DNA from: a bacterium
GTDB taxonomy: Bacteria > UBP18 > UBA7526
DNA length: 7,419 bases
Assembly (NCBI GenBank): GCA_030615855.1
Contig: JAUWYL010000035.1
Location: 1 to 7,419, forward strand
Direction: 5' to 3'
Shown: one piece after another, positions 1 to 7,419 of the stretch
Layout of the letters: each line of letters starts with the position of its first letter
Position numbering within the stretch: the first letter of the stretch is position 1
The notes under the pieces: model-generated
The model's database searches: none
What the model saw: the letters and a program-made list of their open reading frames with translations, nothing else
What the model was told of the DNA's origin: nothing
Position numbers and translations under genes: made by a program

Positions 1-822
1 TGGAGGGTGGGACCCCCCTGGTACCAGCCCTTTGCTGACATCTTGAAGCTCTTAAGTAAAGAGACCATATTACCAGAAGGGAGCAGGAGAACCGGTTTCT
101 TAGTCGCACCCTTAATTGGGCTGACTGGTGCAATCCTGGTCTCTACTATGCTCTGGAGATTGAACCTTGCTCCTGAAGTGACCTTCATTGGAGATCTGAT
201 CGTAGTTCTCTACCTCCTCATCCTCCCTTCTTTGGCGGTAATCATCGGCGGCTCTGCCTCTGCCAACCCTTTAGGGGCTACCGGGGCCAGCCGAGAGATG
301 AAATTGGTCCTGGCCTATGAGCTACCTTTCTTGATCGCTATGTTCACTGCCGTGGTAAGTGCAGGGGGGAGCATTAAGATTGGAGAGATCCTAAATTATC
401 AAGCGGCTAACGGTCTTATCTTGGGCAGTCTCTCCGGGGCAATGGCCTTTATCGTCTCTTTACTCTGCATTCAGGCGAAGTTGACCTTCATTCCCTTTGA
501 CATCCCGGAGGCAGAGACGGAGATCATGGCTGGCCCACATATCGAATACTCTGGGCCGGCCTTGGCAGCCTTCAAGTTGACCCGGGCCATGATGCTCTTC
601 GTCCTACCCGTCTTTCTCATCACCATCTTCTGGAGAGGACTCTCCTTTTCGGGAATGAATGCCCTATGGACTATTCTCAAGTATCTCGCTATTTTAGTTA
701 TTATTATTTTAATAAAGAATACCAATCCCCGCGTAAGGATCGACCAAGCTCTGAAATTTTTCTGGTTCCCGGTAACAGGATTGGCTATTCTGGGGATGAT
801 TCTGGCCCTTTTTGGAAAATAA
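1..822 (+). CDS. mbhM: NuoH/MbhM-like membrane anchor subunit of group 4 [NiFe] hydrogenase (5'-truncated by the window edge)
   Basis: This is the membrane subunit that docks the hydrogenase peripheral arm and links electron transfer to ion pumping (complex I NuoH/ND1, MbhM, HyfC family). The reading frame is open from base 1 (W-R-V-G-P-P-W-Y-Q-P-F-A-D), and the family motif RVGPPWxQPxxD normally lies after TM1. The GTG at 7 is therefore an internal valine and the true start is upstream. Visible signatures are GSASANPLGATGASRE (about 250-300), YELPF with the conserved glutamate of the quinone/E-channel region (316-330), PFDIPEAETE (493-522), EYSG (546-557), and the C-terminal NPRVRIDQALKFFW, which is typical of hydrogenase rather than Nuo versions. 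About seven hydrophobic segments remain. The stop is followed 18 bases later by the CbiM-like gene. The family call is secure. The choice of Mbh over Hyf/Ech naming is inferred from the Mrp-type genes downstream. Confidence 0.93.
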   Translation, partial: WRVGPPWYQPFADILKLLSKETILPEGSRRTGFLVAPLIGLTGAILVSTMLWRLNLAPEVTFIGDLIVVLYLLILPSLAVIIGGSASANPLGATGASREMKLVLAYELPFLIAMFTAVVSAGGSIKIGEILNYQAANGLILGSLSGAMAFIVSLLCIQAKLTFIPFDIPEAETEIMAGPHIEYSGPALAAFKLTRAMMLFVLPVFLITIFWRGLSFSGMNALWTILKYLAILVIIILIKNTNPRVRIDQALKFFWFPVTGLAILGMILALFGK

Positions 823-840: not shown

Positions 841-1578
841 ATGCATATTCCAGATGGGTTTCTATCGAGAAATATCTGCGGAGCAATGGGAATGGTTGCT
901 CTGGCAGTGATTAGCTATTGTATCCGAAGGGCTCGGGCAATGCTCTTTGAGAAAGTAAAGGTTCTAAAGACAAAATTAGTTACTGCCCAAGGGCCGGGCG
1001 TGGGAAAATACTCTACTAAGAGTATCTTGAGCGCTCTGGGCAGAAAGAAGGCATCCTTGATGGGAGTAGTGGGAGGATTTGTCTTCGCCGCTCAGATGCT
1101 CAACTTTCCTGTCAAGTATGGAACGAGTGGCCATCTGGTAGGTGGAGTACTAGCCGCTATTTTATTGGGGCCTTTTGAGGCAGCGATAGTAATGACCATC
1201 ATTTTGGCCGTTCAGGCCTTCCTCTTCGCAGATGGTGGGATCTTCGCCTTAGGGGCAAACATATTCAATATGGGAATCCTTGCTACCGTGGGAGGATACT
1301 ATCTTTATTATTTCCTAAAGAAAATTCTGTCTGGAAAGAGAGGGATGCTATTTTCTGCCTTTATTGCTGCCTGGCTCTCTGTGGTATCAGCTTCCATTGC
1401 CTGCTCTTTTGAGTTAGGATTTAGCAGGACCTATCCCTTATCCCGAACCTTGCCCGCTATGGTCAATCTCCATATCTTGATCGGCCTCTGCGAGGCCTTG
1501 ATTACCGTTGGAATATTAACTCTCCTCTTAAAAGTTAAGCCGGAACTACTCAAAGAGGAGGTGGGAGATGAGACTTAA
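841..1578 (+). CDS. cbiM: CbiM/NikM-type substrate-specific membrane component of an ECF nickel/cobalt transporter
   Basis: Integral membrane protein (245 aa) that binds Ni2+ or Co2+ for uptake. The N-terminus MHIPDGFLS is the hallmark of the family: in NikM2 the amino terminus and His2 are metal ligands. Other family motifs are FAAQMLNFPV (82-91), GTSGHLVGG with His98, a second metal ligand by homology (94-102), QAFLFADGGIFALGANIFNMG (125-145, split by family-variable residues) and HILIGLCEALIT near the C-terminus. About six to seven membrane segments are apparent. The loop after TM1 (about residues 30-71, with many Lys/Arg) looks roughly 25 residues longer than I expect for CbiM. It overlaps the next gene by 11 bases. 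Metal specificity cannot be read from sequence. Nickel is inferred because the neighbours encode a [NiFe] enzyme, and cobalt for cobalamin synthesis is the alternative. No CbiQ or CbiO gene is seen here. Confidence 0.95.
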   Translation: MHIPDGFLSRNICGAMGMVALAVISYCIRRARAMLFEKVKVLKTKLVTAQGPGVGKYSTKSILSALGRKKASLMGVVGGFVFAAQMLNFPVKYGTSGHLVGGVLAAILLGPFEAAIVMTIILAVQAFLFADGGIFALGANIFNMGILATVGGYYLYYFLKKILSGKRGMLFSAFIAAWLSVVSASIACSFELGFSRTYPLSRTLPAMVNLHILIGLCEALITVGILTLLLKVKPELLKEEVGDET

Positions 1579-1855
1579 GTGGTATCATCTGGGGTTGATT
1601 ATCTCTTTACTTTTAGCCGGGTTTCTATCTCCCTTTGCTTCCTCTCTTCCCGATGGCCTGGAAAAGGTGGCAGAGGATTTGGGTTTTATAGAAAAGGGGA
1701 AGGTTATCCTCTCCTCACCCCTGGCTGACTATCTCTTTCCCGGAATAGAGAGTGAGAGATTAGCTACCTCCTTAGCCGGAATAATCGGGGTATTATTAGT
1801 GTCTGGTTTGGCCTGGAAATTGGAGAGACTTCTTATTAAGGGAATAAAGGAATGA
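1568..1855 (+). CDS. PDGLE-domain small membrane protein, CbiN/NikN-like partner of CbiM
   Basis: Small protein of 95 aa with two transmembrane segments (about residues 7-24 and 67-84) flanking an extracytoplasmic loop. The loop starts SSLPDGLEKVAEDLGF (PDGLE at 28-32) and ends with PLADYLFPG (51-59), the pattern of the PDGLE domain found as a separate protein or fused to the C-terminus of NikM/CbiM. Such two-helix proteins act as accessory components in metal loading of the M component. The start at 1568 overlaps the cbiM stop by 11 bases and has a GGAGGTG Shine-Dalgarno (1557-1563) inside the cbiM coding end, so translational coupling is likely. The protein ends directly after a basic helix (KLERLLIKGIKE). 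No energising components follow: the next 245 bases are non-coding and then hydrogenase genes resume. Confidence 0.9.
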   Translation: MRLKWYHLGLIISLLLAGFLSPFASSLPDGLEKVAEDLGFIEKGKVILSSPLADYLFPGIESERLATSLAGIIGVLLVSGLAWKLERLLIKGIKE

Positions 1856-1914
1856 ATCCCGCCCCTCTTTCCTTAAACCGACAAAATAATTCTATAGAAA
1901 GTTCAAATATCTTT

Positions 1915-1952
1915 CTCGAGGTATCGGAATTTGAATAAATTCCGATACCGAG
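1915..1952. repeat. Perfect 13-bp inverted repeat with extended stem (hairpin 1)
   Basis: The arm GGTATCGGAATTT (1920-1932) is the exact reverse complement of AAATTCCGATACC (1937-1949), with a 4-base loop GAAT. With a two-base bulge the stem can extend through CTCG (1915-1918) pairing with CGAG (1949-1952), in which case the first G-C pair of the inner stem is rearranged. No U-tract follows on either strand, so it is not a standard terminator. It could be a dispersed palindromic (REP/MITE-like) unit, an operator, or an mRNA stabilising stem. Confidence 0.8.
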
Positions 1953-1963
1953 GATTAGAAGGT

Positions 1964-1991
1964 CTGGGGGAAAGAATCTGCTTACTCCCAG
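1964..1991. repeat. Imperfect 7-bp inverted repeat (hairpin 2)
   Basis: CTGGGGG (1964-1970) pairs with CTCCCAG (1985-1991) with one G-U pair across a 14-base loop. It is weak on its own, but it lies between two perfect palindromes and may be part of the same structured unit. Confidence 0.4.
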
Positions 1992-2000
1992 GGGGTGACA

Positions 2001-2035
2001 GGGAATTTTTCCGAACTATTGCAGGAAAAATTCCC
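2001..2035. repeat. Perfect 12-bp inverted repeat (hairpin 3)
   Basis: GGGAATTTTTCC (2001-2012) is the exact reverse complement of GGAAAAATTCCC (2024-2035), with an 11-base loop. The stem has no trailing T-run and ends about 65 bases before the small-subunit start. It fits a repeat element or a regulatory stem in the leader of the catalytic genes. Confidence 0.8.
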
Positions 2036-2040
2036 GCCAG

Positions 2041-2079
2041 AGGGGCAAAGCCCCTATGGAAGTATTCCCGAAGGGGATA
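2041..2079. repeat. Two adjoining short hairpins upstream of the small-subunit gene (hairpins 4 and 5)
   Basis: AGGGGC (2041-2046) pairs exactly with GCCCCT (2050-2055) over a 3-base loop. Immediately after, TATTCCC (2063-2069) pairs with GGGGATA (2073-2079) with one G-U pair over a GAA loop. Both are compact and sit just before the ribosome binding site at 2088-2094. If they form in RNA they could insulate or expose that site. They could equally be the distal part of a dispersed palindromic repeat. Confidence 0.55.
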
Positions 2080-2087
2080 TCTTGGGC

Positions 2088-2094
2088 AAGGAGG
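2088..2094 (+). promoter_or_regulatory. Shine-Dalgarno AAGGAGG that fixes the small-subunit start
   Basis: AAGGAGG lies 6 bases before the ATG at 2101, an ideal spacing. By contrast, the in-frame ATG at 2056 is preceded by the AGGGGC/GCCCCT hairpin and no ribosome binding site. This supports 2101 as the true start. Confidence 0.8.
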
Positions 2095-2100
2095 GGCGGG

Positions 2101-2517
2101 ATGAAACTAAAGGATTGGGCCTTTAAAAAATCCCCCTGGATATTCCATCTCGGCGCCGGCTCCTGTAACAACTGCGACATCGAGCTTTTAGACTGTATCA
2201 CACCGAAGTTCGATGTGGAGAGGTTTGGAATTCTACTGGTGGGTAGCCCGAGACATGCCGATTGCCTGGTAATCACTGGAATTGTCACCAAGAAGGTTCT
2301 CCCCAGACTCAAGAGAGTCTATAAGCAGACCCCAGATCCAAAGATAGTTATCGCTGTGGGTGCTTGTGCCTGTTCTGGGGGAATCTTTCGGGATGGTTAC
2401 AATATGGCGGGACCAGTGGATAGGGTTATTCCCGTAGATGTCTATATCCCGGGTTGCCCTCCCAAGCCAGAGGCCATTATCTCAGGAATAGTTAAGGCTT
2501 TGGGGGACATGAAATGA
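2101..2517 (+). CDS. mbhJ: [NiFe] hydrogenase small subunit, MbhJ/NuoB-like (proximal [4Fe-4S] cluster)
   Basis: The 138-aa electron-transfer subunit next to the NiFe site, on the cytoplasmic face. It carries a single [4Fe-4S] cluster, as in group 4 hydrogenases and NuoB. The likely ligands are all present: Cys22 and Cys25 (AGSCNNCDIE), Cys89 (VGACACSGGIF) and Cys119 (IPGCPPKPE). Other family marks are SPW at the N-terminus, FDVERFGILLVGSPRHADCLVITG (about 37-60, conserved in pieces) and PVDVYIPG. The length fits group 4 small subunits, which lack the extra clusters of group 1 enzymes. Starting at 2056 would add 15 residues encoded by the hairpin region that look unrelated to the family, so I chose 2101 with its AAGGAGG site. 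Cys32, Cys55 and Cys91 are extra cysteines. Its stop overlaps the next start (ATGA), indicating translational coupling with the 30-kDa subunit. Confidence 0.95.
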   Translation: MKLKDWAFKKSPWIFHLGAGSCNNCDIELLDCITPKFDVERFGILLVGSPRHADCLVITGIVTKKVLPRLKRVYKQTPDPKIVIAVGACACSGGIFRDGYNMAGPVDRVIPVDVYIPGCPPKPEAIISGIVKALGDMK

Positions 2518-2945
2518 AAGAGGATGTAGTCAAAGAGATTAAGAAAAAGTTTTCTGAAGGAATAAAAGATTTTCAAGAGAAATCAAAGAAGAGGGTATAC
2601 TTTACCATTGATAAGAAGGATCTCTTAGGGGTGATAGAATATCTCTTTAATAATCTTGAAGCACGTTTTATCACCGAGACTGGTCTAGATACTCGAGCAG
2701 GAATAGAGATTTTGTATCACTTCTCCTTTGATGAATTAGATAAGATAGTTACTATTCGTACTCTGTTAGATCGGAAGAAACCAGAAGTAGAATCTGTCGT
2801 TTCCATTATCAAAGGCGCAGAGTGGATTGAAAGGGAAATATACGATATCCTGGGAGTGAGGTTCAAGAATCATCCCAACCTGAAGAGGTTCATCCTGGCC
2901 GAGGATTGGCCCAAGGGAAAGTATCCTTATCGGAAGGTGAAATAG
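2514..2945 (+). CDS. mbhK: Hydrogenase 30-kDa-type subunit, MbhK/NuoC-like
   Basis: A 143-aa soluble protein of the complex I 30-kDa family, which packs against the large subunit and has no cofactor. The diagnostic C-terminal block is present: EWIEREIYDILGVRF (103-117) then NHPNLKRFIL (119-128) and EDWPKGKYPYRK (130-141), matching the family pattern ERExYDxxGxxFxxHPxLxR...DDWP...P.RK. The N-terminal 30 residues are very lysine-rich and charged, and probably helical. It is compact relative to NuoC of respiratory complex I, as expected for Mbh/Ech-type enzymes. Start and stop are tightly packed: ATGA overlap with the small-subunit gene upstream, and the large-subunit ATG follows its stop directly. 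The ribosome binding site is weak (GGGGG at 2502-2506), so translation probably depends on coupling to the upstream gene. Confidence 0.92.
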   Translation: MKEDVVKEIKKKFSEGIKDFQEKSKKRVYFTIDKKDLLGVIEYLFNNLEARFITETGLDTRAGIEILYHFSFDELDKIVTIRTLLDRKKPEVESVVSIIKGAEWIEREIYDILGVRFKNHPNLKRFILAEDWPKGKYPYRKVK

Positions 2946-4148
2946 ATGGCAGAGAAGAAAAGGACCATAATTCCTATCGGTCCCTACCATCCCCTGCAAG
3001 AGGAGCCAGAGTTCTTCCTCCTGGGAGTAGAAGGGGAGAAGGTAGTGGACATCGAATGGAAGACAGGATATAACCATCGGGGGATAGAGAGGATAGCTGA
3101 GACCAAGTCCTATGACCAGGTTACTTTCCTGGTGGAGAGGGTCTGCGGAATCTGTTCTACCTCTCACCCCATAGCCTACTGCAATGCCATGGAGGATTTG
3201 GCGGGTATCGAGATCCCGGAGAGGGCAAAGTATATCCGGAGCATTATTGCTGAACTGGAGAGGATCCATAGCCATCTCCTCTGGGTGGGATTGGCCGGAC
3301 ACTTCTTAGGTTACAATACGGTCTGGATGTGGTCCTGGAAGTATCGGGAACCGGTCCTGGATATCATGGAGGCCATAAGCGGTAACCGGCAGAACTATGC
3401 CATGCTGAAGATAGGAGGGGTGAGGAGGGACATCGAGGAGAGTGACATCCCAAAGATTCTAAAGATGGTGGAAAAGCTAGTTCCTAACTTAGATCTCTTG
3501 ACTGGTGCGATAACCGATGATCCAGTACTCCATGTTCGATTGAAGGGAGTAGGAATTCTGACCAAAGAGGAGGCCCGGAACTATGGGGCAACCGGACCCA
3601 CTGCCCGGGCAAGTGGACTTCCCTTTGATGCGCGCCGGGATTCTCCCTACGCTGCCTATGATTTAGTGGACTGGAAGGTCATTACCCGCCAGGAGGGGGA
3701 TGTCTTCGCCAAGGTAGTGGTAAGATTACTGGAGATGTACGAGTCGGTGAAGATCATCAAAGAGTGCCTGATGAGATTGAGAAAGGTAAAGACAGAAATC
3801 GCCATTAAGGTGGAGGAGATTCCTCCTGGAGAGGGGATCGGCCATCCCGAAGCACCCCGGGGAGAGGTATTTCACTATATCCGCTCAGACGGAACCAATC
3901 GGCCAGTGCGGCATAAGATAAGGGCGCCCAGTTTTTGTAATGTCCCCACCTTCCGGGCCACGGTCATAGGAGAGACGATATCCGATGCCACCATAATATT
4001 GGCTGCAGTAGACCCCTGCTATTGCTGTACCGAGAGGATGGCGGTGGTGGATAAGAGAACGGGAAAGAAGGAAATGAATGGTTTCGATCTCATTAGGCTA
4101 TCTCAAGAGAAGACTAAGGATTTGAGAAGAAAGATGTTGGGGAAATGA
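2946..4148 (+). CDS. mbhL: [NiFe] hydrogenase large (catalytic) subunit, group 4, MbhL/NuoD-like
   Basis: The 400-aa catalytic subunit that holds the Ni-Fe(CN)2CO site and interconverts H+ and H2. All four nickel-ligand cysteines are present: the N-terminal motif ERVCGICSTSH (Cys67, Cys70, His74) and the C-terminal motif DPCYCCTER (Cys358, Cys361). This separates it from NuoD of complex I and from Mbx/Mbs-type relatives, where these cysteines are partly or fully lost. The N-terminus IPIGPYHPLQEEP and GYNHRGIE (41-48) are family-typical, and the GATGPTARASG block lies near residues 214-224. The 36 residues after Arg364 (MAVVDKR...) resemble the C-terminal tail of HycE-type subunits, which is removed by a maturation endopeptidase; cleavage after Arg364 is inferred, not seen. 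Cys360 between the two ligands is an extra cysteine where serine is common. It has an AAGGTGA ribosome site (2934-2940) and a 4-base overlap with the next gene. Confidence 0.96.
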   Translation: MAEKKRTIIPIGPYHPLQEEPEFFLLGVEGEKVVDIEWKTGYNHRGIERIAETKSYDQVTFLVERVCGICSTSHPIAYCNAMEDLAGIEIPERAKYIRSIIAELERIHSHLLWVGLAGHFLGYNTVWMWSWKYREPVLDIMEAISGNRQNYAMLKIGGVRRDIEESDIPKILKMVEKLVPNLDLLTGAITDDPVLHVRLKGVGILTKEEARNYGATGPTARASGLPFDARRDSPYAAYDLVDWKVITRQEGDVFAKVVVRLLEMYESVKIIKECLMRLRKVKTEIAIKVEEIPPGEGIGHPEAPRGEVFHYIRSDGTNRPVRHKIRAPSFCNVPTFRATVIGETISDATIILAAVDPCYCCTERMAVVDKRTGKKEMNGFDLIRLSQEKTKDLRRKMLGK

Positions 4149-5950
4149 ACGCGCTCCTTTATCCTATAGTTTTACCTTTGGTAGCTGGTACTATATCTTT
4201 TATCATCCCTAAAAAGCGAAAAGCTTATCTTTACCTGTTAGCCTTTGCCACATCCTTAGCCACCCTTCTGGTGGCTATTTATCTATTCATGAATCGACCA
4301 TTATCCTGGCAACTGAATGACTTCACCATTTTAAGGGTGGACAGTCTTTCCAGCTTCATACTGCTGGCCATCGCTCTCTTTGGTTTCCTCATCATCCTCT
4401 ATTCCCTTCGCTATATGGGAGAGAAGCAGGGATTAAAAGTATATTATGCTAATCTATTATGGACCATTGGAGCGGCCTGCGGAGTAGTCCTATCAAATAA
4501 TCTGATTCTTTTCTTAACATTTTGGGGATTCTTGGGGATTACTCTATATCTTCTCATAAATCTTGGGGGGGAAGAAGCGGCTTATGCCGCGAAGAAGACC
4601 TTCATTATTATTGGCGGCTCAGACGCTTTAATACTCCTGGGCATAGCAATCATCTGGCAACTTACCGGGTCTTTCCAGATGGACGGAATAAGTATATCTT
4701 TAAATGGAGGATTGCCCCTCCTGGCCTATCTCTCTTTGGCCATAGGGGCCTTTGCCAAGGCAGGGGCCATGCCCTTTCACACCTGGATTCCTGATATGGC
4801 CGAGAGCGCACCGGTCTCAGTCACCGCATTCCTGCCGGCATCATTGGATAAGTTGTTGGGTATCTATCTCTTGGCCAGGATCTCATTAAATCTCTTTATA
4901 ATGAATAAGGCCCTGGGTTTGGTTTTATTAATAGTTGGGGCAGTAACCATTATTGCTGCAGTGATGATGGCCTTGATCCAGCACGACTTGAAGAGACTCC
5001 TCTCTTACCATGCAGTATCCCAAGTGGGTTATATGGTTTTAGGTATTGGAACAGGCAACCCGATAGGCATTGCTGGTGGTTTATTCCACATGTTGAATCA
5101 TGCTATCTATAAAGGCTGTCTTTTCTTATGTGGTGGCGGCGTAGAACATCAAACAAGAACCTCGAACCTAAATAAATTGGGTGGATTAGCCAAGGCCATG
5201 CCCATTACCTTCGTTACCTGCCTAATAGCCGCCCTATCCATATCTGGCATTCCTCCCTTCAATGGCTTCGTCTCCAAGTGGATGGTCTATCAGGGTGTGA
5301 TTGAACTTGGGAAGACTGGGGATAGACTATGGGTTATATGGCTAATAGCCGCTATGTTTGGTTCTGCCTTGACTTTAGCCAGCTTTATGAAGTTAATTCA
5401 CGCTATATTCTTAGGCCAACGAGCTAAAGAATTAGCAGGCAAACGAATCACTGAAGTCCCCTGGACCATGTGGCTTCCTATGGTGATTTTAGCTGGTCTC
5501 TGCATTCTTTTTGGGGTATTCGCTATATCAGTGCCCCTAAGACATTTTATCCTTCCTGCGGTAGAAGGCGTCTCATTCTTAGGGTTCTGGTCACCAGCCT
5601 TAGCCACCCTTTTGATCATCATAGGCATCATAATTGGGCTCATTCTTTATGGTATAAGTAACTTGAGACTGAATTTAAGGAGGGACACCAGTTTTATCGG
5701 AGGGGAAGTAATCCCTGATGAATATCGAGTTAGCGGGGTTGATTTCTATAATACGGTAAAGGAACTTTCACCCCTCAAAGGGATCTACAAAAAGGCAGAA
5801 GATAAATTCTTCGATATCTATGACCAAGGCAAAAGACTCACCCTCTTCTTTACCCGTCGACTTCAACATTTACATAGTGGGATACTTCCCACATATTTGG
5901 TCTGGTGCTTAGTGGGAATGCTCGTCCTATTCTTCGTTTTAATGAGGTAA
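4145..5950 (+). CDS. NuoL-type antiporter-like membrane subunit (proton_antipo_M), atypical TM5/TM8
   Basis: A 601-aa polytopic protein (about 14 or more membrane segments) of the NuoL/NuoM/MrpA/MrpD family, expected to form an ion channel in the membrane arm. Recognisable elements are KAGAMPFHTWIPDMAESAPVSV (TM7 Lys205 and following, conserved in pieces), HDLKRLLSYHAVSQVGYM (280-297), the LFHMLNHAIYKG helix with His315, His319 and Lys323, and SGIPPFNGFVSKW with Lys378 (TM12 lysine). Two positions differ from the usual pattern: where FxxWE carries the TM5 glutamate this protein has TFWGFLG (Gly128), and the TM8 segment usually read HAxxMVxAG is LPASLDKLLG (230-239). Asp160 in TM6 is an added buried acid. 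The C-terminal 90 residues form a charged, probably amphipathic stretch (GVDFYNTVKEL, FFDIYDQGKRL) and a last membrane helix starting LPTYLVW. The ATGA overlap places it directly after the catalytic subunit. It is not a plain MrpD; HyfB/NuoL-like is the best family label. Confidence 0.9.
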   Translation: MNALLYPIVLPLVAGTISFIIPKKRKAYLYLLAFATSLATLLVAIYLFMNRPLSWQLNDFTILRVDSLSSFILLAIALFGFLIILYSLRYMGEKQGLKVYYANLLWTIGAACGVVLSNNLILFLTFWGFLGITLYLLINLGGEEAAYAAKKTFIIIGGSDALILLGIAIIWQLTGSFQMDGISISLNGGLPLLAYLSLAIGAFAKAGAMPFHTWIPDMAESAPVSVTAFLPASLDKLLGIYLLARISLNLFIMNKALGLVLLIVGAVTIIAAVMMALIQHDLKRLLSYHAVSQVGYMVLGIGTGNPIGIAGGLFHMLNHAIYKGCLFLCGGGVEHQTRTSNLNKLGGLAKAMPITFVTCLIAALSISGIPPFNGFVSKWMVYQGVIELGKTGDRLWVIWLIAAMFGSALTLASFMKLIHAIFLGQRAKELAGKRITEVPWTMWLPMVILAGLCILFGVFAISVPLRHFILPAVEGVSFLGFWSPALATLLIIIGIIIGLILYGISNLRLNLRRDTSFIGGEVIPDEYRVSGVDFYNTVKELSPLKGIYKKAEDKFFDIYDQGKRLTLFFTRRLQHLHSGILPTYLVWCLVGMLVLFFVLMR

Positions 5951-5954
5951 CTAA

Positions 5955-6479
5955 ATGCTTGAACTGTATATCCTTTCATTGCTCATGATTATAGGTGCCA
6001 TAATTGCCGTAGAGATTAAGGATCTATTATCCTCAGTCATTGCTGTAGGTGCCGTGGGATTAGTGCTATCAGTTACCTTCCTTATATTAAAGGCGCCAGA
6101 TTTAGCCATTACTCAGTTAGTAGTAGAGCTTTTATGTCTAATTATTTTGATTCAGGCAACAATTAAGAGAGGTATTCCGCGGGTTATAAGCAGACAGAGT
6201 TTTCTTACTATATTTGTGACCTTAACCTTTATTGGTCTATTTTTAGCATTTGCTTATTCTTCCTTAAGAGACCTACCCCAGTTTGGCCATCCCATAATGA
6301 GGGTGGCTAACCATTACTTAGAAGAGGGCTTAAATAAAACCGGAGCAACCAATCTGGTGGCTTCAGTGATCTTAGATTTTCGTGCTTATGACACCTTGGG
6401 TGAGGCAACAGTACTCTTTACCGCAGTGATTGGAGTCCTGGCAGTTTTGAGAAAAATCGGAAGGAAGAAAACCCCATGA
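5955..6479 (+). CDS. Fused MbhD-MbhE protein (DUF4040 plus MrpA C-terminal-like domain)
   Basis: A 174-aa membrane protein with two domains that are separate genes (mbhD, mbhE) in Pyrococcus and form the C-terminal part of MrpA in Mrp antiporters. The N-terminal half contains the DUF4040 signature LKAPDLAITQLVVELL (45-60) with Glu58, the acid that corresponds to a conserved MrpA residue involved in ion transfer. The C-terminal half has GATNLVASVILDFRAYDTLGEATVLFTA (130-157, conserved in pieces), with DFRAYDTLGE the classic MbhE/MrpA motif (Asp141, Asp146, Glu150). About five hydrophobic segments are apparent, joined by a loop around 103-128. The gene begins 4 bases after the NuoL-like stop with a GAGGT ribosome site (5944-5948) and overlaps the mnhB start by ATGA. 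It probably lies at the sodium/proton path between hydrogenase and Mrp-like modules. Confidence 0.92.
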   Translation: MLELYILSLLMIIGAIIAVEIKDLLSSVIAVGAVGLVLSVTFLILKAPDLAITQLVVELLCLIILIQATIKRGIPRVISRQSFLTIFVTLTFIGLFLAFAYSSLRDLPQFGHPIMRVANHYLEEGLNKTGATNLVASVILDFRAYDTLGEATVLFTAVIGVLAVLRKIGRKKTP

Positions 6480-6943
6480 GACAAAAAAATCTGCGTAATC
6501 AGCGATCAGGAATGACACTAATTGTAAAGACAATTACCCGTCTAACCATCGGACTAATTCTTTTGTTCGGCATCTATATCGTCCTGCACGGACATATTAC
6601 ACCCGGGGGTGGCTTTGCTGGAGGAGTAATTATCGCTTTATCCTTTATTCATCTGATGCTTGCTTTTGGAAAGGATCTGGCTCTGAAGAAGTTAAGCGAG
6701 GTTCAGGCTTCTTTCTTTGAGAGCCTGGGTGCCATTATGTTTTTGACTATTGCTATTCTGGGTTTTGTGGGTGGATACTTCTTCCTCAATTTCTTCTCAG
6801 ATAAAGGAGAGCCCTTTAGACTCTTTAGCGCCGGGATTATTCCTTTATGTAATGTCGCCATATGTTTTAAGGTGGGAGCGGGATTATTTGCCATCTTTGC
6901 AGCTCTGGTCTTCCTAAAGATAGGTTCAGGAGAGGAGAAATGA
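6476..6943 (+). CDS. mnhB: MnhB/MrpB-family subunit (MbhF equivalent)
   Basis: A 155-aa membrane protein with four likely helices, belonging to the MnhB (MrpB) domain family of Na+/H+ antiporters and Mbh hydrogenases. The defining motif HGHITPGGGFAGG is at residues 38-50 (family LxGHxxPGGGFxGG), and the C-terminal SAGIIPLCNVAICFKVGAGLF (118-138, conserved in pieces) is also standard. The start at 6476 overlaps the preceding stop (ATGA) and has GGAAGGAAG (6459-6467) 8 bases upstream. This adds a charged 12-residue leader before the first helix. The alternative ATG at 6512 has only an adjacent AGGA with no spacing, so I keep 6476. It stabilises the Mrp-like module in which Na+ translocation is believed to occur. 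Confidence 0.93.
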   Translation: MRQKNLRNQRSGMTLIVKTITRLTIGLILLFGIYIVLHGHITPGGGFAGGVIIALSFIHLMLAFGKDLALKKLSEVQASFFESLGAIMFLTIAILGFVGGYFFLNFFSDKGEPFRLFSAGIIPLCNVAICFKVGAGLFAIFAALVFLKIGSGEEK

Positions 6944-7278
6944 TAATCTACTTCATGTGCCTGATTCTTTTCTGTGTTGGTCTATACGCTATTTTGGTAA
7001 AGAGGAACCTCATTAAGATTATCATTGGCATAATAATAACCGAATATGCAGTTAACTTATTCTTTATCTTAGTTGCCTACCGCTCGAAAGGTCGGGCACC
7101 GATATTAGCACCAGATCAGATAGTCAAGAATATGGTCGATCCCCTGCCTCAAGCGCTGGTCTTAACTGCCATTGTTATCGGCCTGGCCGTGACTGCCTTG
7201 ATAGTCTCCATTGCGGTAAGAGTCTATGAAAAATATGGTACTTTTGATATTACCAAAATTAGGAGATTAAAAGGATGA
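6940..7278 (+). CDS. mnhC: MnhC/NuoK-family subunit (MbhG equivalent)
   Basis: A 112-aa protein with three transmembrane helices, homologous to NuoK and to MrpC/MbhG. Signatures are GLYAILVKRNLIKIIIG (14-30), YAVNLFFILVAYR in TM2, and the MrpC-specific DPLPQALVLTAIVIGLAVTA segment in TM3 that separates it from NuoK (whose TM3 glutamate is absent here). A single membrane acid, Glu35 in IITEYAVNL, is three residues beyond where NuoK has its TM2 glutamate. GGAGAGGAG (6929-6937) is a good ribosome site, and the start overlaps the mnhB stop by ATGA. The protein sits between the DE/B part and the antiporter subunit that follows. Confidence 0.93.
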   Translation: MIIYFMCLILFCVGLYAILVKRNLIKIIIGIIITEYAVNLFFILVAYRSKGRAPILAPDQIVKNMVDPLPQALVLTAIVIGLAVTALIVSIAVRVYEKYGTFDITKIRRLKG

Positions 7279-7419
7279 ACCTATTGCCCCTCTTCGTGGC
7301 TATACCATTGGGTACTGCATTTCTGGTCTCTCTTTTTGGAAAAAGAGTAAAGAATTTTTCTGATTCTTTATCCAATTTAGCCACCCTTTCCTTACTTCTC
7401 CTTTCTTTATTTTCCATAT
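7275..7419 (+). CDS. MrpD/NuoM-type antiporter subunit, N-terminal fragment (cut by the window end; MbhH equivalent)
   Basis: Only the first 48 codons are visible: an N-terminal hydrophobic helix (NLLPLFVAIPLGTAFLVSLF), a short basic turn (GKRVKNFSD) and the start of a second helix rich in Leu/Ser. This is the usual beginning of MrpD/MbhH/NuoM/N subunits, and the position directly after mnhC is where mrpD/mbhH stands in Mrp and Mbh operons. The start overlaps the mnhC stop (ATGA) with AGGAG (7261-7265) upstream. The identity rests mainly on context because the diagnostic central helices lie beyond the window. If confirmed, the complex would have two antiporter-type subunits together with the NuoL-like protein. 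Confidence 0.75.
   Translation, partial: MNLLPLFVAIPLGTAFLVSLFGKRVKNFSDSLSNLATLSLLLLSLFSI

Follow-up and report, generated by a model that had tools for sequence, protein, structure and literature searches.

An insert-bearing CbiM–PDGLE pair within a group 4 hydrogenase operon, a candidate nickel uptake system free of the ECF module

Introduction

Among the described metal transporters, the closest to the gene pair reported here are NikMNQO and CbiMNQO. Their S components carry an extra N-terminal helix (PMC6828968). In the vitamin transporters, helix 1 of FolT contributes to the docking surface for EcfT (PMC4820897). The small partner proteins have been linked to different metals, those of the NikN type to nickel, CbiN to cobalt (Zhang et al. 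2009; PMC2667541). In cells, cobalt is transported by CbiM and CbiN alone (PMC7689651), some S components are described as transporting without an ECF module in a passage of PMC4820897 that cites Kirsch and Eitinger 2014, and BtuM is a solitary S component restricted, but for one exception, to organisms without an ECF module (PMC6072759). On the side of the enzyme, the nearest systems are Mbh of Pyrococcus furiosus (6cfw) and the bacterial Mrp-linked Mbh enzymes, which are classed as group 4g (PMC8542988).

The locus described here joins both themes. Its operon shares with Mbh and the bacterial 4g enzymes the large and small subunits, the anchor, MbhDE, the Mnh-type modules and the hyp genes, and differs from them by a cbiM–PDGLE pair between anchor and small subunit and by beta/gamma-type genes upstream. 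Its anchor gene precedes that of the small subunit, a further difference from Mbh that it shares with other bacterial operons. Like NikMNQO and CbiMNQO, the pair has a predicted S component fold (4m5b), a Met1-His2 start and an N-type partner encoded alongside; unlike them, it lies inside a hydrogenase operon, its CbiM bears an insert of about 30 residues between TM1 and TM2, and its genome has neither a detected T component nor a recognised dedicated ATPase. In this last respect it resembles the solitary BtuM and BioY (PMC6072759), S components of genomes without a T component for which motor-less transport has been proposed. It differs from them in its putative metal, rather than vitamin, substrate, and in a second small membrane protein, PDGLE; its own transport is a prediction.

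Results

The locus and its assembly

The window, 7,419 bases long, is the whole of contig C28 of the MAG G000 (1.375 Mb in 45 contigs, 93.6% complete). All its features lie on the plus strand, in the Pfam order nuoH, cbiM, PDGLE, nuoB, nuoC, nuoD, nuoL-like, mbhDE, mnhB and mnhC. A nuoH/mbhM-like membrane anchor gene (1..822; PF00146, E 5e-56), the 5′ end of which is on contig C22, precedes the gene of a 245-aa CbiM/NikM S component of the insert type (841..1578; PF01891, E 6e-57) and that of a 95-aa PDGLE protein (1568..1855; PF13190, E 9e-20), a NikN-like partner by alignment with no CbiN match. After a copy of a dispersed structured repeat (1914..2088), the hydrogenase genes resume with a nuoB/mbhJ-like small subunit (2101..2517; PF01058, E 5e-34), a nuoC/mbhK-like subunit (2514..2945; PF00329), a nuoD/mbhL-like [NiFe] large subunit (2946..4148; PF00346, PF00374) and a nuoL/mbhH-like antiporter subunit (4145..5950; PF00361), followed by an Mrp module composed of an mbhDE fusion with mnhB-like and mnhC-like genes (5955..7278; PF13244, PF20501, PF04039, PF00420) and by the 5′ end of an mnhD-like gene (7275..7419).

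The original prediction had placed cbiM and a PDGLE gene within a group 4 hydrogenase locus, between nuoH and nuoB, on the same strand and 18 bases after the anchor gene, and these points are borne out by PF01891, PF13190, the MHIPDGFL start and the GTSGH motif. The nuoH stop codon lies at 820-822 and the cbiM ATG at 841, the 18-base gap holds a Shine-Dalgarno-like AGGAGGAGG, and the last 11 bases of cbiM are shared with PDGLE. From the shared strand and the short gap, co-transcription of cbiM with the operon is plausible, and the pair would be co-expressed with the hydrogenase. A scan of positions 600-2300 for promoters and terminators gave no excess over shuffled sequences, and an Rfam scan of the window gave no NiCo, cobalamin or other RNA at E<=1. 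A single CbiM gene was found in G000. The GC contents of cbiM (0.47) and PDGLE (0.44) fall among those of the rest of the operon (0.38-0.51), and so give no sign of recent foreign DNA.

At each end the window is identical to the end of another contig over exactly 141 bases, the first 141 bases being shared with C22 and the last 141 with C40, and it is therefore no orphan. Identity over 141 bases is also found in 19 other pairs of G000 contig ends, which would fit an assembly graph with k=141. Judged from contig sequence rather than reads, the C22–window–C40 joins look sound. Leading into the window, C22 carries sulfhydrogenase-like beta and gamma (FAD/NAD type) genes, a TPR protein, a ferredoxin-type protein and nuoH, while C40 continues with mnhD, mnhE, a 150-aa ORF, mnhG, a ferredoxin-type protein, a maturation protease, hypA, hypF, hypD and hypE. 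The NiFe maturation gene hypD, in continuation of the same operon, was called by family search, and the remaining names on C22 and C40 come from similarity and sequence reading. Sulfhydrogenase-like gamma genes upstream of the ferredoxin–nuoH end were seen in three genomes (L300, on C22 of G000, L122 and L160), with a beta gene in addition on C22; it is uncommon for diaphorase-like parts to be combined in this way with those of a membrane hydrogenase.

The hydrogenase and its ordinary gene order

The group 4 (Mbh-type) features are all present: a small subunit, a NuoH-like anchor, antiporter modules and a large subunit whose two CxxC motifs are found at residues 67-70 and within 358-361. Among solved structures, this large subunit is closest to P. 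furiosus MbhL (6cfw). We regard the enzyme as group 4, 4g-like and Mrp-linked, the subgroup (4g versus 4d) being named by resemblance. Its nuoB most likely starts at 2101 and not at 2056, since relatives start there; the in-frame ATG at 2056 falls inside the repeat.

The comparison took in 27 related operons that show both nuoH and nuoB, with large-subunit identities of 59-75%; G005, a member of the family of G000, and G098 (locus L035) are among them. In all 27, nuoB follows nuoH within about 100 bases with no CbiM between them; in G005, nuoB starts one base past the nuoH stop. The order M before J-K-L, also found in the window, is therefore the normal bacterial one, and its reading as the mark of a lineage is rejected: it is the cbiM–PDGLE pair that is an addition in the lineage of G000. 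The order nuoH-like/cbiM–PDGLE/nuoB-like was itself seen in G000 only, a single MAG, and in none of the 27 related operons. Confinement to one assembly and a misjoin had both been named beforehand as grounds against the arrangement; the former is what we see, whereas the contig ends connect cleanly, with no sign of the latter. The phylum of G000 has six genomes in our set, and CbiM is absent from two of the same genus (75 and 83% complete) and from three other family members; among these five relatives, G005 alone shows the hydrogenase. Among the best 80 CbiM loci from 84,980 species genomes, L035 is the only one with this hydrogenase nearby, and there an ordinary hypA-nikR-cbiM-PDGLE-cbiQ-cbiO-hypF set lies downstream of the related hydrogenase.

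A CbiM with an insert between TM1 and TM2

PF01891 covers residues 2-236 of the window CbiM, with GTSGH at residues 94-98, and the metal-site residues are invariant across 40 CbiM. The predicted model (mean pLDDT 91, pTM 0.86) matches NikM2 (4m5b, Z 30.8, rmsd 1.3 over 200 residues; 4m58, Z 30.2) and the CbiM of CbiMQO (5x3x, Z 23.2), and most vitamin S components align to it from residue ~60-66 on, which agrees with the additional helix that metal S components have at the N-terminus.

The insert lies at about residues 36-66 and brings the TM1-TM2 stretch of the window CbiM to 50 residues; this stretch measures 45-51 residues in four of 106 CbiM versus 15-21 in the other 102. A profile built from these four, namely the window, L033 and L082 (Patescibacteria) and L026 (G061), was run on 386 genomes across the domain, and among the 97 with CbiM it matched from residue 1 only in G000, G061, G206 and G337, the last three being one family. 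In a sample of Patescibacteria, the phylum of L033, CbiM was found in 8 of 379 genomes, and all seven full-length proteins match the profile from residue 1. The insert-type proteins thus number twelve: that of the window, those of three genomes of the G061 family and those of eight Patescibacteria loci. All twelve fall on one side of one branch in a tree of 114 CbiM built after removal of sparse columns, with a support of only 32, so that a single origin is neither shown nor excluded. In the model, the insert has low confidence (block means 58-63) and stands just before the helix corresponding to FolT helix 1. Speculatively, it may reflect release from EcfT docking, and we hypothesise a link between the insert and the loss of the T component.

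The missing motor

The original prediction had assumed an ordinary transporter. From the features of a group I ECF system, this genome has the S component with the MHxPDG start and metal-site histidines and the N-type partner, and a search with PF02361 (CbiQ/EcfT family) found no T component in its 93.6% complete assembly; an S-component fold in a genome where no T component is found is the trait of a solitary S component. The same search was positive in 10 of 14 control genomes. PF02361 is absent from four of four insert-type genomes (G000; G061, 99% complete; and two without a completeness figure, G099 of 0.6 Mb and G388 of 1.0 Mb) and present in 10 of 10 ordinary-CbiM genomes of the search that covered the last three. 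Neither cbiQ nor cbiO was seen at any of the 12 insert-type loci, eight of the genomes being checked around the pair only, and the insert-type lineages are not all independent. Ten ordinary CbiM loci have no cbiQ within 3 kb either, and those searched genome-wide have one elsewhere; local absence alone therefore proves little. A cbiM–PDGLE pair of ordinary length without cbiQ within 3 kb was also seen in Planctomycetota (L053, L054, L055, L058, L070, L079, L087); in those of their genomes that were searched, CbiQ is encoded elsewhere.

As for the ATPase, no ABC protein of G000 passes the TIGR01166 cut-off, under which the true CbiO of G098 also fall. The best CbiO-like ABC ATPase of G000 scores 147 bits, versus 203 and 194 for the two CbiO of G098, and by sequence reading it adjoins an ABC permease and a MoeA-like protein.

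Nickel genes around insert-type pairs

Nickel-gene clusters (larB-larC, sulfhydrogenase-type hydrogenase genes, hypF) lie in or near 7 of the 11 other insert-type pairs. In the small-genome family of G061, cbiM–PDGLE without cbiQ stands directly before larB-larC (L026, L202 and L203, of G061, G337 and G206), with a PF01969 nickel insertion protein and PF00731 confirmed at L026. In L082, L204 and L207, the pair follows sulfhydrogenase-type beta-gamma genes; L082 and L204 also have a small subunit further along, to which L204 adds a [NiFe] large subunit. L033 has a divergent hypF 3.4 kb from the pair. No nickel gene is close to the pair in four Patescibacteria loci (L205, L206, L208, L209). The open-access literature yielded no report of a link between cbiM and hydrogenases in Patescibacteria.

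This context, together with L035, speaks for the predicted nickel rather than cobalt, to the extent that gene neighbours can tell, and we infer that nickel is the substrate. PDGLE itself we take to correspond to NikN.

A structured repeat before nuoB

The repeat of ~173 bp at 1914-2088 has six other copies in G000 at 77-89% identity (C30:55032-55203, C7:13685-13845, C45:23883-24044, C45:24896-25049, C35:127879-128040 and C18:3644-3806). RNAalifold gives 49 pairs over the seven copies, ten of them with compensatory changes, and one arm of the repeat is swapped in other copies for unrelated self-complementary sequence. One copy is located within an O-antigen-ligase-like ORF whose reading frame continues across it, and a second makes up the 3′ end of an RND-efflux ORF; the repeat may resemble palindromic elements that enter genes in frame. 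The element is bracketed by a 15-nt inverted repeat (93%; 1856-1870 and 2088-2102), which spans the nuoB start codon together with its Shine-Dalgarno region and could hide the nuoB start.

Discussion

We consider that the cbiM–PDGLE pair is probably an ECF-module-free nickel uptake system, NikM/NikN-like, that serves the nickel enzyme encoded around it, the transport and its motor-free character being read from gene content. Starting from an ancestral operon gamma-ferredoxin-nuoH-nuoB-C-D-L-Mrp-hyp, cbiM–PDGLE would have been inserted between nuoH and nuoB, so that the pair would be made together with the hydrogenase and nickel entry would rise with demand. The N-terminal Met-His and the GTSGH histidine would bind Ni2+ at the outer face, with PDGLE helping its loading, and CbiM would admit the ion by spontaneous reorientation, without an ECF motor, its entry being pulled by trapping in HypA and apo-hydrogenase. 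Entry through CbiM–PDGLE alone is favoured because CbiM and CbiN suffice for cobalt transport, some S components work module-free and BtuM is solitary.

The pair could instead belong to an ordinary NikMNQO with Q and O encoded elsewhere, on missing contigs or with a T component too divergent for PF02361. An assembly of 45 contigs that is 93.6% complete leaves room for such a gene in its missing part, T-like proteins without similarity to NikQ do lie beside nikO in six organisms (Zhang et al. 2009; PMC2667541), and G000 has ABC ATPases resembling CbiO, the best at 147 bits. Yet this last protein scores under the CbiO of G098 and sits beside a permease and a MoeA-like protein, four insert-type genomes, one of them 99% complete, are without a T component, and cbiQ/cbiO were seen at 0 of 12 insert-type loci, which makes Q and O elsewhere unlikely. 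Still less probable is import of cobalt, or of both metals, by a pair that sits in the hydrogenase operon incidentally: CbiM and NikM share a metal site and are indistinguishable by conserved residues, and NCBIfam labels both proteins cobalt transporters, but insert-type relatives recur in nickel-gene clusters, the partner is PDGLE and not CbiN, and no cobalamin riboswitch was found in the window.

The repeat directly downstream of the pair bears on two further readings. Together with the missing QO, it could mean that cbiM–PDGLE is a decaying, non-functional remnant, or was dropped in by the element; this is very improbable given that both frames are intact, the metal-site residues are invariant across 40 CbiM, the predicted NikM fold is confident, the Shine-Dalgarno is good and distant genomes again show the pair intact without QO. 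Lying exactly between the pair and nuoB, in a junction known from one assembly, the repeat could also have produced a chimera, which we consider the remotest of these readings: its longest exact match to other copies is 37 bases, far under the 141-base overlap, and the left junction, nuoH–cbiM, has no repeat.

Returning to the module-free nickel pair, its parts are known, and what would be new is the natural occurrence of a nickel pair that bears an insert, has no motor and is tied to nickel-gene clusters, of which no example was found in the open-access papers searched. Whether insert-type CbiM–PDGLE constitutes a nickel transporter in its own right, by nature free of the ECF module and belonging to small-genome bacteria (Patescibacteria, the G061 family and the lineage of G000), which recurs in different nickel-enzyme clusters (lar genes and [NiFe]-hydrogenases of group 4 and of the sulfhydrogenase type), is in our view an evenly balanced matter. 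The question at stake is whether metal ECF S components function motor-less in nature, beyond laboratory subsets, and the absence of a T component, an insert preceding the helix presumed to dock to it, and neighbouring nickel-enzyme genes together define a directly testable group. The finding suggests a route of nickel entry for Patescibacteria with [NiFe]-hydrogenases, and looks like a stripped-down way to supply nickel to an enzyme.
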